A stretch of DNA of 64,000 nucleotides. It comes from Botryobacter ruber (GTDB lineage: Bacteria; Bacteroidota; Bacteroidia; Cytophagales; Hymenobacteraceae). Made by a program: the position numbers and the translations under genes. Location of the stretch: positions 186,001 to 250,000 of the forward strand of contig NZ_QCZK02000024.1 of the NCBI RefSeq assembly GCF_003347595.2, given 5' to 3'. The notes beneath the pieces are model-generated. The model did no database searches, had not been told where the DNA came from, and saw only the letters and a list, made by a program, of their open reading frames with translations. This document shows positions 40,679 to 44,414 of this stretch, in pieces (position 1 is the stretch's first letter; each line of letters starts with the position of its first letter).

Positions 40679-41240
40679 ACACGCTCTCTGGCGTGATGGC
40701 ACAATCCAGGGGAACATCAAACGGGTTAGGGTCTGCGATACGCTCTACAGGCGGCTCCAGCGACAGACCTACCTTCAGCACATCGGGGCGGCAATCGGCC
40801 AGGAAGCGGTCGTAGAAGCCTTTGCCGTAACCTACGCGGTGCCCGGTTTTGTCGAAAGCCAGCAGCGGCAGCAGCACTACATCCACCTCCTCTGCCTGGA
40901 TAATATGCGCGTTCTGCGGCTCGGGTATTCCCCAGTCGTTTTCCAGCAGCACCGCCTCATCGGTCAGGTGATGATGCGTGAGCACGCGCTGCGCCACATC
41001 AGTTACCGGCACCGCCACGCGCACCTCCGGGTGTTCCACCCGAAGCCGGTCGATGATTACCCAGGTATTTACTTCGTTGTTTTTGAGGATGGGCAGGAAC
41101 ACATGTACCGTTTGCCCGGCCTGCAGTGCAAAGTGCTGGAAAAACTGGTCTGCAATGCGCTGGCTGCGCAGCTGCACCTCCTCCGCCGGAAGCGCCCGCC
41201 GCCGCTCCAGCATCAGTTTCCGTAGCATCGCCTTCTGCAT
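40659..41240 (-). CDS. 5-formyltetrahydrofolate cyclo-ligase
   Basis: A 193-residue protein. Conserved elements are the N-terminal KAMLRKLMLERRRALPAEEV, the ATP-binding QTVHVFLPILKNNEVNTWVI region, and VDVVLLPLLAFDKTGHRVGYGKGFYDRFL (the hallmark GYGKGFYDRFL loop). It converts 5-formyl-THF to 5,10-methenyl-THF. Its ATG overlaps the bshC stop by one base (TAATG), so coupling is likely. The last codons (VWRGSGG) overlap a weak copy of the dispersed repeat. Usual names are ygfA/fthC/MTHFS. Confidence 0.95.
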   Translation of the reverse strand: MQKAMLRKLMLERRRALPAEEVQLRSQRIADQFFQHFALQAGQTVHVFLPILKNNEVNTWVIIDRLRVEHPEVRVAVPVTDVAQRVLTHHHLTDEAVLLENDWGIPEPQNAHIIQAEEVDVVLLPLLAFDKTGHRVGYGKGFYDRFLADCRPDVLKVGLSLEPPVERIADPNPFDVPLDCAITPESVWRGSGG

Positions 41241-42802
41241 TATTCTTCCTCCAGTATCGTAAATTTCAGGTCGAACGGGTCGAAAGCGGCAGCCAGTTCC
41301 GCTATAAAATCCGGGTTGTTGGTCCGGTAAGAGAGCAGGTTGTCGTAGCGCTCCTGCAGACTGCCGCCCGGGAACAGCTTCTCCTTCAGGTTCTCGAGCT
41401 GTTTAAACGTCTGCTCGTGCTTGTTGTCGCGGGCTTTGGATATTTTCTTCTCCAGCATCTGCAGCGTATTGGTTGCTTTCTGGGCTTCTGCTCCTACTGA
41501 TTTGGTGAGCGTCGGGTCAATTTCCTGCGCCAGCTGCTCTACCTGGGCAAAGGCGGCAGCAACCTGCTCCCGCTGCGCTTCCAGGCTTATCTCCTCTTCG
41601 TGCAGCACCAACGACATGTGCTTCTTCAGCTCCACATAATCTTTGAACAGCACCTCCGGCTCCAGCCCCAGTTTATGCATCCGGCTGGCGTTGCTGCGGC
41701 CAATGTAAAGCGCGGAGTTGCGCAGCATCAGCACCGGGAAAGTAACTTCGTATGTCTCAAATAACTTCTTCAGCTGGAACCAGTACAGCACTTCTGCCCC
41801 ACCGCCCACATAGGCCAGGTTGGGCAACACCAGCTCTTCGTACAGCGGCCGCAGGATCACATTCGGACTAAACTCCTCCGGATGCTCCTTCGCCCGTTGC
41901 AGCACTTCTTCCCTGGTAAAGCTGATGTCGGTGTTTAATACGTTGAACTGCTCGCCTTCCTGCACAATCCGCTCCCGGAGCCCCTCCTTCAGGTAAAACA
42001 GGTTGATCTCGCGCGGGTACACCTGCGGTTTGTAGCCTGCCTGTTCCAACTGCGCACTTGTTTCGCTTACCAGCTTATGCGACAGGTTTTCGGTCAGCTC
42101 CTTCTCAATGACAGGTGTGAGCGCCTGCTTCAGCACCGGGTGATCTCCGTCGATGCTCACCAGCCCGTAATCGCCAAACAGGGCATGGGTGATGGCACGG
42201 GTAGCATCGGCCAGCGTTTTGCTGTTGCGGTAGGCTTCTTCGAAAACGGGAAACTTCTCCGGCAGCTCGTCCAGCAATTGCTCCAGGCCTGCTGTTGAAA
42301 AACGGCCTACGGCACCTGCCTGCTCCGTCTGCCATTCGTAACGTTTGCCAAACAGGTTGAAGTGGTTGATCTCTGCAAAGTCGTGGTCTTCGGTCGCCAT
42401 CCAGTACACCGGCACGAAGTTGTAGTCAGGGTACTTTTCCTGCAGCACCCGGCAGGTGTTGATGGCGGTGATGATCTTATAAACAAAGTAGAGCGGCCCC
42501 GTGAAGATGTTGAGCTGGTGACCGGTGGTGACGGTGTAGGTATTGGGCTGCAGCAACAGCTCTATGTTTTGCTGCACTTTCGGGTTAACTTCTGTTACTG
42601 TTTTATACTGCTCCAGCAATACCTGTTGCAGCGTCTGCCGCTGTTCCTGGCTAAAATGTTTCTCCTTCAGCTGCACTTCAAATACCTCCGGTGCCGGAAA
42701 ACGGTTATAGAAAGGCTGCAGCTTTTCACTGCGACACAGGTAATCGGTTATGGCCTGGGAGAAGGCGCCGGTGGCGGCGTAGTCGATCTTGGTTATTTTC
42801 AT
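41240..42802 (-). CDS. bshC: Bacillithiol biosynthesis cysteine-adding enzyme BshC
   Basis: A 520-residue protein starting MKITKIDYAATGAFSQAITD at 42802 (a further Met lies five codons upstream). Family signatures include TVTTGHQLNIFTGPLYFVYK, PVYWMATEDHDFAEINHF, VLRPLYEELVLPNLAYVGGG and AEVLYWFQLKKLFE. A long coiled coil fills about 400-480. It is thought to add Cys to the GlcN-malate precursor of bacillithiol. BshA and BshB are not in this window. fthC follows with a 1-bp overlap. Confidence 0.96.
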   Translation of the reverse strand: MKITKIDYAATGAFSQAITDYLCRSEKLQPFYNRFPAPEVFEVQLKEKHFSQEQRQTLQQVLLEQYKTVTEVNPKVQQNIELLLQPNTYTVTTGHQLNIFTGPLYFVYKIITAINTCRVLQEKYPDYNFVPVYWMATEDHDFAEINHFNLFGKRYEWQTEQAGAVGRFSTAGLEQLLDELPEKFPVFEEAYRNSKTLADATRAITHALFGDYGLVSIDGDHPVLKQALTPVIEKELTENLSHKLVSETSAQLEQAGYKPQVYPREINLFYLKEGLRERIVQEGEQFNVLNTDISFTREEVLQRAKEHPEEFSPNVILRPLYEELVLPNLAYVGGGAEVLYWFQLKKLFETYEVTFPVLMLRNSALYIGRSNASRMHKLGLEPEVLFKDYVELKKHMSLVLHEEEISLEAQREQVAAAFAQVEQLAQEIDPTLTKSVGAEAQKATNTLQMLEKKISKARDNKHEQTFKQLENLKEKLFPGGSLQERYDNLLSYRTNNPDFIAELAAAFDPFDLKFTILEEE

Positions 42803-42942
42803 AGTTGCTATTTCCATCAGCAGTAGCTATTCCTGTTACAGAATTGCCGGAAAACTGTTGCGCCGGCACTAGCCTTTGCACATCACTACAAAGTAACGGT
42901 TTTATTTTTGTTTTGTAAGGGAGATGTTACTCCGTATCAGAG

Positions 42943-43025
42943 GACCTCGCAGTGTGCGCAGCTCCTGCGAGTGTCTGACAGCAGTCGACCCAGACACTCG
43001 CAGGAGCTGCGCACACTGCGAGGTC
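42943..43025. repeat. Perfect 35-bp inverted repeat with 13-bp loop
   Basis: Arm 42943-42977 (starts GACCTCGCAGTGTGCGCAGC) is exactly complementary to 42991-43025; the loop is 42978-42990. It lies between the rimO 3' end and the bshC promoter side. There is no T-run, so it is not a standard terminator. It may be an insertion remnant or a processed RNA hairpin. Confidence 0.95.
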
Positions 43026-43100
43026 TTTGTGAAACTGCAAAACAAAAAAAGCCCCACAAGCGAAAAACACCTGCAGAGCTTACGAATCGAAACAAATCTT

Positions 43101-44414
43101 TTACTTCACCACCTCGCCATACAGGTCGAAGTCGGAGGAGTCGGTTATTTTCACGTTGGCGAAGTCGCCGATGCGCACGTAGGTGTCGGTAGCAGGTACA
43201 AGCACCTCGTTGTCTACTTCCGGCGAATCGAATTGCGTACGGCCTACGAAGTAGCCGCTTTCTTTGCGGTCGAACAGCACTTTGTAGGTGTTGCCTACTT
43301 TTTCCTCGTTCAGCTCTACCGAGATTCCCTGCTGCAGTTCCATAATGGCGTCGGCACGCTCCTGCTTCACGTCTTCCGGCACGTTGTCTTCTAAGGAGAA
43401 GGAGTGGGTGCTTTCTTCGTGAGAGTAGGTAAAGATGCCGAGGCGGTCGAAGCGGGTTTCTTCTACCCAGTCATACAGCTCCTGGAAATCCTGGTCTGTC
43501 TCGCCGGGGTGACCTGCGATGAGTGTGGTTCTTAAAGCAATATCCGGCACCCGCTGGCGGATGGCGTCAACGAGTTTGATGGTACGGCGCTTGCTGATGC
43601 CGCGGCGCATGGTTTTGAGCATGTTGTCGGAAACGTGCTGCAGCGGCATGTCGAGGTACTTGCAGATGTTGTCGCGCTCGTTCATCACGTCGAACACTTC
43701 CATCGGGAACTGCGACGGGTACGCGTACTGCATCCGTATCCAGTCGATGCCTTCCACATCCGAGAGGTGGCGGAGCAGGTCGGGCAGCTTGCGCTCGCCG
43801 TAATGCTGCAGGCCGTAGTAGGTCAGGTCCTGGGCAATAAGTATCAGTTCTTTGGTGCCCATGCTGGCCAGGCGCTTTGCTTCTTTTACCAGGTCCTCGA
43901 TCGGGCGGTCTACGTGCTTGCCACGCATCAGCGGGATGGCGCAGAACGAGCAGGGACGGTTACAACCTTCGGCAATTTTGAAGTAAGCAAAGTGTGATGG
44001 GGTGGTAATCAGACGCTCGCCCACCAGTTCGTGCTTGTAGTCCGCCTCCAGCTTTTTAAGCAGCTGCGGCATTTCGAGCGTACCGAAATAGGCATCCACC
44101 TGCGGTATCTCCACCTCCAGCGAATCTTTGTAGCGCTGCGAGAGGCAACCGGTTACGTATAATTTATCAATTGCACCAGCCTCCTTAGCGTCTGCATAGC
44201 GCAGAATGGTGTCGATGGATTCCTGCTTGGCATTGTCGATGAAGCCGCAGGTGTTGATGATGATAATATTGGAATCGTCTTTGTCGGATTCATGCGCCAC
44301 GTCCATCTGGTTGGCACGCAGCTGCCCCATCAGCACTTCCGAATCGACCAGGTTTTTGGAGCAACCCAGCGTAATGACGTTTACTTTATCTTTTTTGAGT
44401 GTTCTTACTTTCAC
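43101..44414 (-). CDS. rimO: Ribosomal protein S12 methylthiotransferase
   Basis: A 437-residue radical-SAM methylthiotransferase. The N-terminal UPF0004 domain has VITLGCSKNLVDSE and NTCGFIDNAKQES. The radical-SAM cluster is CNRPCSFCAIP, and the C-terminal TRAM domain ends IGDFANVKITDSSDFDLYGE. It adds a methylthio group to Asp89 of S12. The start is GTG at 44414; no ATG fits. A good -7 box lies at 44496-44503, giving an 80-nt leader. It lies near ftsY, rpmG and rpmB, a neighbourhood usual in the phylum. Confidence 0.97.
   Translation of the reverse strand: MKVRTLKKDKVNVITLGCSKNLVDSEVLMGQLRANQMDVAHESDKDDSNIIIINTCGFIDNAKQESIDTILRYADAKEAGAIDKLYVTGCLSQRYKDSLEVEIPQVDAYFGTLEMPQLLKKLEADYKHELVGERLITTPSHFAYFKIAEGCNRPCSFCAIPLMRGKHVDRPIEDLVKEAKRLASMGTKELILIAQDLTYYGLQHYGERKLPDLLRHLSDVEGIDWIRMQYAYPSQFPMEVFDVMNERDNICKYLDMPLQHVSDNMLKTMRRGISKRRTIKLVDAIRQRVPDIALRTTLIAGHPGETDQDFQELYDWVEETRFDRLGIFTYSHEESTHSFSLEDNVPEDVKQERADAIMELQQGISVELNEEKVGNTYKVLFDRKESGYFVGRTQFDSPEVDNEVLVPATDTYVRIGDFANVKITDSSDFDLYGEVVK

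Follow-up and report, generated by a model that had tools for sequence, protein, structure and literature searches.

A perfect hairpin between rimO and bshC of Botryobacter ruber: a probable REPIN of a RAYT-associated REP family in Pontibacter

Described REP-RAYT systems and the rimO-bshC hairpin

The closest described systems are the REPINs of Pseudomonas fluorescens and Escherichia coli, which, in the portion of the source available to us (PMC3116915), consist of an inverted pair of REP units with a spacer, lie outside genes, and are tied to a RAYT gene flanked by the same repeats; the same account takes REP doublets to be the presumed spreading unit. According to the accessible parts of PMC8266576 and PMC3733652, the E. 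coli RAYT cleaves single-stranded REP DNA and requires a hairpin with a bulge and a foot. Subclass 2.4 of TnpA_REP, which corresponds to RAYT group 4, is assigned to Cyanobacteria and Bacteroidetes, has in-gene REPs as a unique feature, and is listed with the motifs WQ and YIxNNP in a motif table (excerpts of PMC6006769). Two further kinds of element appear in the sections available of PMC3733652. CGTC-tagged REPs are short palindromes, also known from Bacteroidetes, in which the CGTC is unpaired and the repeats do not border transposase genes. TIRtrons, or TIRYTs, are tyrosine transposases bracketed by inverted repeats unrelated to REPs, some of these repeats being self-complementary and dispersed.

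A structure resembling the first of these systems lies in the window, by which we mean the whole 64,000-nt stretch of Botryobacter ruber DNA that was analysed. It occupies part of the 283-bp gap between rimO and bshC, two genes on the minus strand (Table 1). A repeat search of the window found its two arms complementary at 35 of 35 positions, so that the original prediction of identical 35-bp arms around a 13-bp loop containing GTCGAC was exact. The inverted repeat is far above chance expectation. Folded as DNA, the surrounding 97-nt region reaches -51.2 kcal/mol (z -10.96), a value equalled by none of 200 shuffles. Directly after the hairpin there is no T-run longer than TTT on either strand, as the original prediction had also observed; the structure does not have the form of an intrinsic terminator, and a role for it as the rimO terminator was rejected for this reason. 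Matches to Rfam over positions 42928-43041 comprised microRNA, snoRNA and Mycobacterium sRNA models only. Some of the microRNA models returned low E-values, all matches fell under the gathering scores, and we regard them as a false lead, attributable to a hairpin that is both long and perfect.

Table 1. Features at the rimO-bshC site, in positions of the window
Feature	Coordinates	Strand	Remark
Left REP unit	42943..42977	+	Equals the commonest REP sequence of the genome
Spacer, 13 nt	42978..42990		ACAGCAGTCGACC; contains GTCGAC
Right REP unit, inverted, same as left	42991..43025	-	AAA, the commonest foot, precedes it on its own strand
Terminator-like hairpin with T-run	43049..43081	-	Outside the REPIN, which it separates from rimO; 19 nt past the rimO stop
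rimO	43101..44414	-	Upstream neighbour; Pfam match fits
bshC	41240..42817	-	Downstream neighbour; Pfam match fits

We are highly confident that the feature is a REPIN, that is, two inverted REP hairpins of 34-35 nt with their tails inward, belonging to a REP-RAYT family and inserted between rimO and bshC, because 15 of the 19 pairs of neighbouring units in the family are inverted and tail-to-tail. Three marks of a REPIN were found: an inverted pair of units with a short spacer, many copies outside genes, and a RAYT gene flanked by the repeat. Title searches combining Bacteroidetes or Pontibacter with RAYT or REPIN, which covered mostly papers free of subscription, turned up no Pontibacter REP family, and a literature search with the first ten letters of the unit listed unrelated titles.

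The dispersed REP family and its unit

Searching the genome with 171 bases around the hairpin returned 78 matches on many contigs. Looking for the arm elsewhere in the genome had been proposed from the outset, and a 34-nt REP pattern allowing at most two mismatches locates 63 sites, 46 of them exact, versus none for the reversed control pattern. When the 63 units are aligned, their borders are sharp, with high information at positions 0-33, an A-rich foot immediately before and little past them. They fall into 44 clusters, of which 28 have one unit, 13 have two and 3 have three. Every one of the 13 two-unit clusters is arranged tail-to-tail, and the 19 neighbouring pairs comprise, besides the 15 tail-to-tail, 2 head-to-head and 2 in line. 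The gaps within these pairs measure 14-15 nt in four cases, the rimO/bshC pair among them, 23 and 32 nt in one case each, and 74-98 nt in the remaining 13. Like the REPINs of P. fluorescens and E. coli, as far as the available text of PMC3116915 describes them, the rimO/bshC pair is an inverted, extragenic doublet with a spacer, and its family is linked to a RAYT that has these repeats on its flanks. Unlike them, the family has no GT[AG]G foot, its gaps are mostly 14-15 or 74-98 nt, the present genome has its cognate RAYT in broken form, and the RAYT lineage is centred on Bacteroidota.

Identity over 34 nt is seen in only 3 of the 19 neighbouring pairs, and the perfectly matched pair stands at the upper end of the range of the family. 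According to the original prediction, perfect arms of such length are rarely kept without selection or recent origin. The repeat is indeed far beyond chance, but its perfection is less telling, as 21 of the 63 aligned units, both rimO/bshC arms counted in, are identical to the 35-nt arm. The arms match perfectly mainly because the REP family is very uniform. Units are seldom found in genes; 4 of the 63 lie wholly within an open reading frame of at least 150 aa and 9 have any overlap with one, as compared with 927 of 1260 random nearby 34-mers lying wholly within. Two of the four are the rimO/bshC arms themselves, in an open reading frame antisense to the end of rimO that we take to be spurious. 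As a separate observation, several REP copies (L012 at 4792 and 11416, L020 at 4728 and L021 at 7905) adjoin sequence reading about aatcctgtaaatcctgattcagacaa, on either strand.

Each arm alone is predicted to fold as a REP hairpin of 34-35 nt, in which GAC-CTCGCAG leads through an unpaired Y and GT into a short inner stem and loop, followed by CCTGCGAG, a second unpaired Y and GTC. Substitutions in the stem are compensated. The harvest pattern leaves five stem pairs unconstrained, and across 85 distinct units collected at loci of Pontibacter and Rufibacter these are paired in 402 of 425 cells. In 2000 column shuffles the mean was 328 and the highest value 346; this control ignores the relatedness of the units, so that we read the result as support for the hairpin and not as a probability. 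An inner pair at positions 12 and 20, one side of which is fixed by the harvest pattern, was excluded from this score; it forms in just 47% of the distinct units. Inner stems alternate between GC/GC, CC/GG and CT/AG by compensating changes, with loops that vary too, and outer stems alternate between CTCGCAG, CTCACAG, CTAGCAG and others, each with its matching partner.

The foot departs from the canonical one. A GT[AG]G within 6 nt of the unit occurs in 1 of 63 units on each side, which sets the family apart from canonical GTAG REPs, and the commonest foot is AAAA (18 of 63 units). The stem ends in CGTC or TGTC in 58 of the 63 units. The units thereby resemble the CGTC-tagged REPs, which are likewise short palindromes with such a tetranucleotide at one end. 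In contrast to the unpaired CGTC and unflanked transposase genes that the available sections of PMC3733652 ascribe to that group, the GTC here is predicted to pair with GAC in either arm and the repeats adjoin RAYT genes, and the family does not fit the CGTC REP superfamily.

RAYT genes of the lineage and their flanking repeats

The three genes of the genome that match the Y1 transposase model PF01797 (L035, L036 and L037) were considered as partners and rejected, the best REP site in their 3.2-kb loci having at least 14 mismatches in 35. The partner was reached instead through a sister REP. In genome G006, pairs of REPs with a sister stem (CTCACAG/CTGTGAG) lie on both sides of a RAYT-like gene that scores 22.9 bits against PF01797, just under the cut-off of 23, a model too weak for the detection of the partner. 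Among 41 genomes of the genus, the lineage comprises 10 open full-length genes and a broken copy in the present genome. The REP pattern, at up to four mismatches, adjoins all 11 of these loci, namely 10 of 10 open genes and the broken copy, and does so on both sides in 8 of 11 (7 of 10 among the open genes); the count of 11 leaves out RAYT fragments and the broken L130. In the case of the present genome, the copy on contig C43 contains a stop codon and a shift of frame, with the exact 35-nt arm on both sides of it. It is shown for the genus that genes of one lineage of RAYTs, the HUH tyrosine transposases/nucleases, are accompanied by the same REPs or by sister REPs whose stems differ by compensating changes.

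The ten genes are Y1 transposases with the HUH and Y motifs expected of RAYTs, residues H58, H60, Y133, N137 and P138 being invariant among them. All ten match NF047646, two of them with scores of 64 and 67 bits, below the curated 80, and the lineage matches the TnpA_REP structure of PDB entry 4er8 with an E-value of 9.5e-6. The repeat and an open full-length gene of this lineage do not always travel together. Of the 13 congeners that carry the exact unit, no more than three (G006, G008 and G012) show such a gene, and G001 (16 units) and G019 (13 units) show weak matches to another RAYT group only. L130 is a further broken relative, 42% identical and with four stops, beside which there is a single REP-like site with three mismatches; in G006 (L116), a REP-like site, also with three mismatches, lies close to remains of a gene from the other RAYT group.

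Two observations concern other RAYT genes. Remains of a second RAYT at the ends of two contigs, L180 (G000:C21:1-480) and L181 (G000:C44:1-480), have a different palindrome, CCCGGTAGGTTTTGAAAACCTACCGGG, in or beside the gene, as judged by eye. L035 (G000:C3:32214) is an intact RAYT of 181 aa with other downstream repeats, gagcttgtagctcgtac-like and occurring twice, perhaps a REP family of its own.

A wider set was drawn from the best 80 of 169 matches, of which 79 loci come from named genomes, 18 from Pontibacter and Rufibacter and 61 from elsewhere; these 61 belong to Bacteroidota, Chloroflexota, Calditrichota and further groups. Among these best 80 matches, flanks that align as inverted repeats with at least 30 bits occur at 58 of 78 loci, and at 42 of 60 outside Pontibacter and Rufibacter, L236 having been dropped from the test for its short flank. 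When the upstream and downstream flanks of different loci were mispaired as a control, 7 of 77 reached 30 bits. Within the same set, many of these flank repeats are hairpins of about 33 nt, and 24 of the 79 loci carry strong in-frame hairpins within the RAYT gene, 21 of them between the HUH and Y motifs, compared with 0 of 395 codon-shuffled controls. None of the 11 Pontibacter loci of the set has such an in-gene hairpin, and the likeness of in-gene to flanking REPs was judged by eye.

Because in-gene hairpins occur in the wider relatives, the RAYT lineage may tentatively be placed near subclass 2.4. Like subclass 2.4, as characterized in the accessible parts of PMC6006769, most members have an NH[IFV]H motif and the stretch between the HUH and Y motifs is variable. 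Unlike it, the lineage often has FQ for WQ, its YIHxNP mostly lacks the N of YIxNNP (most Pontibacter RAYTs read FQ and YIHFNP, and so do not carry the subclass motifs), and the units of this genome have neither GT[AG]G nor a double foot. The FQ motif had suggested a placing in subclass 2.1, which was provisionally set aside on account of the in-gene hairpins.

Origin of the insertion and recognition of the repeat

Of 24 other genomes of the genus, 13 contain the exact REP pattern, whereas it is absent from all 14 genomes examined from other families of the order. The original prediction had also proposed looking for the hairpin in relatives: the repeat does occur in relatives, and the rimO/bshC copy does not, since the pattern at up to four mismatches is found between the two genes in 0 of 21 relatives. 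These 21 are the loci whose fetched stretch held the rimO end; eight of 29 relatives with loci were dropped for lack of a rimO match (L154, L155, L163, L165, L166, L173, L174 and L177), and 11 further genomes had no fetched locus. L157 and L176, in which the pattern matches with five mismatches about 410 nt past rimO, were scored as absent. A clean empty site was not found among the 21. The absence is seen and no junction can be read, because the gap in these relatives spans 725-1336 nt as against 283 bp here, further open reading frames occupy it in L151 (the one relative whose frames were listed), and BshC is at best 80% identical. As the REP pattern is missing there from all 21 relatives, the REPIN is most simply taken as having been added in this lineage, past the point where the rimO transcript probably ends. 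The suggestion of a recent insertion is thereby upheld for the insertion, a dispersed REPIN absent from this place in relatives, and not for its recency, given a broken cognate RAYT.

Could the host have put the REPIN to use, as a gyrase or nucleoid-protein binding site or a transcription roadblock, in the manner of the E. coli REPs? For other REPs, binding of IHF, DNA polymerase I and gyrase has been reported (accessible parts of PMC6006769), and the near end of the REPIN lies upstream of bshC, 126 nt from its start. Such a regulatory or chromosome-architecture role is nevertheless improbable, the REPIN being kept at this place in none of the 21 relatives.

The RAYT loci raise a second alternative, that the feature is a solo terminal inverted repeat of a TIRtron. 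In 9 of 11 loci of the lineage the two RAYT flanks do match each other in inverted orientation over 30 nt or more, the repeats reaching 115 nt and lying near the start and stop of the gene, and this bracketing of a tyrosine transposase is a likeness to TIRtrons as the text available of PMC3733652 presents them. Unlike the repeats of TIRtrons, these contain REP units themselves. The conserved dispersed unit consists of 34-35 nt and an A-rich foot, with no long terminal repeat, and the unit alignment suggests that dispersed copies share only the REP unit with the RAYT flanks. We consider a TIRtron origin quite unlikely.

The original prediction raised two possibilities, an insertion and an RNA hairpin for the processing or stability of rimO, which would act at the 3' end of the mRNA. 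The hairpin does lie downstream of rimO, and its RNA fold on the rimO strand is very stable (-80.4 kcal/mol, z -13.3). Against this, a terminator-like hairpin with 14 pairs and a T-run behind it intervenes on the minus strand between rimO and the REPIN (-18.9 kcal/mol, z -4.5, in a scan for which 0.9 such sites are expected by chance in the region), so that the rimO transcript probably ends before the REPIN. A hairpin 19-60 nt past the rimO stop is present in 18 of the 21 relatives, although a clear T-run is not found in all, whereas the REPIN is present in none, and the same repeat forms 44 clusters genome-wide. The stability hairpin is therefore very unlikely. An assembly artefact or a fold-back of one arm, conceivable in a draft of 62 contigs, is scarcely credible, because three other short REPINs with units 14 nt apart (starting at C58:90682, C35:84817 and C42:96314) share the anatomy, and the pair at C58:90682-90765 does so with sequence differences of its own (96% over that stretch).

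We return to the reading of the feature as a REPIN. By analogy with the RAYTs of E. coli and Pseudomonas, the RAYT would have bound single-stranded DNA folded into REP hairpins, cut next to these, and transferred the REP pair, or a copy of it, to new extragenic sites. A RAYT of the C43 type, while intact, may have spread the rimO/bshC pair in this way. The REPIN would then have landed upstream of bshC, on the far side of the probable rimO terminator, with no function specific to either gene. Since its cognate RAYT is disrupted in this genome, its present mobility is doubtful, and it would be immobile now unless another RAYT acts on it.

The perfect hairpin is thus a remnant of mobile DNA of a known kind and not a special control element of rimO; nothing special is implied for rimO or bshC. 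An odd perfect hairpin has led to a named mobile-repeat system and its RAYT. As a REP-RAYT family, that of Pontibacter is a new member of an ordinary kind, and the rule by which the repeat is recognized is the more interesting question. We tentatively suggest, from sequence comparison, that the RAYT lineage, extending from Pontibacter and Rufibacter to other Bacteroidota and on to Chloroflexota and Calditrichota, may recognize a hairpin of about 33-34 nt without a GT[AG]G guide, for which the A-rich foot may substitute in Pontibacter, and that different RAYTs may pair with stems that differ by compensating substitutions (CTCGCAG, CTCACAG, CTAGCAG and CTCGCGG). If true, this recognition rule would be unlike that of the E. 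coli and Pseudomonas enzymes, and the lineage would offer a natural series for reading it. A set of RAYT genes with adjoining REPs, compensating stems and no GT[AG]G foot makes the rule of REP recognition testable outside Proteobacteria.
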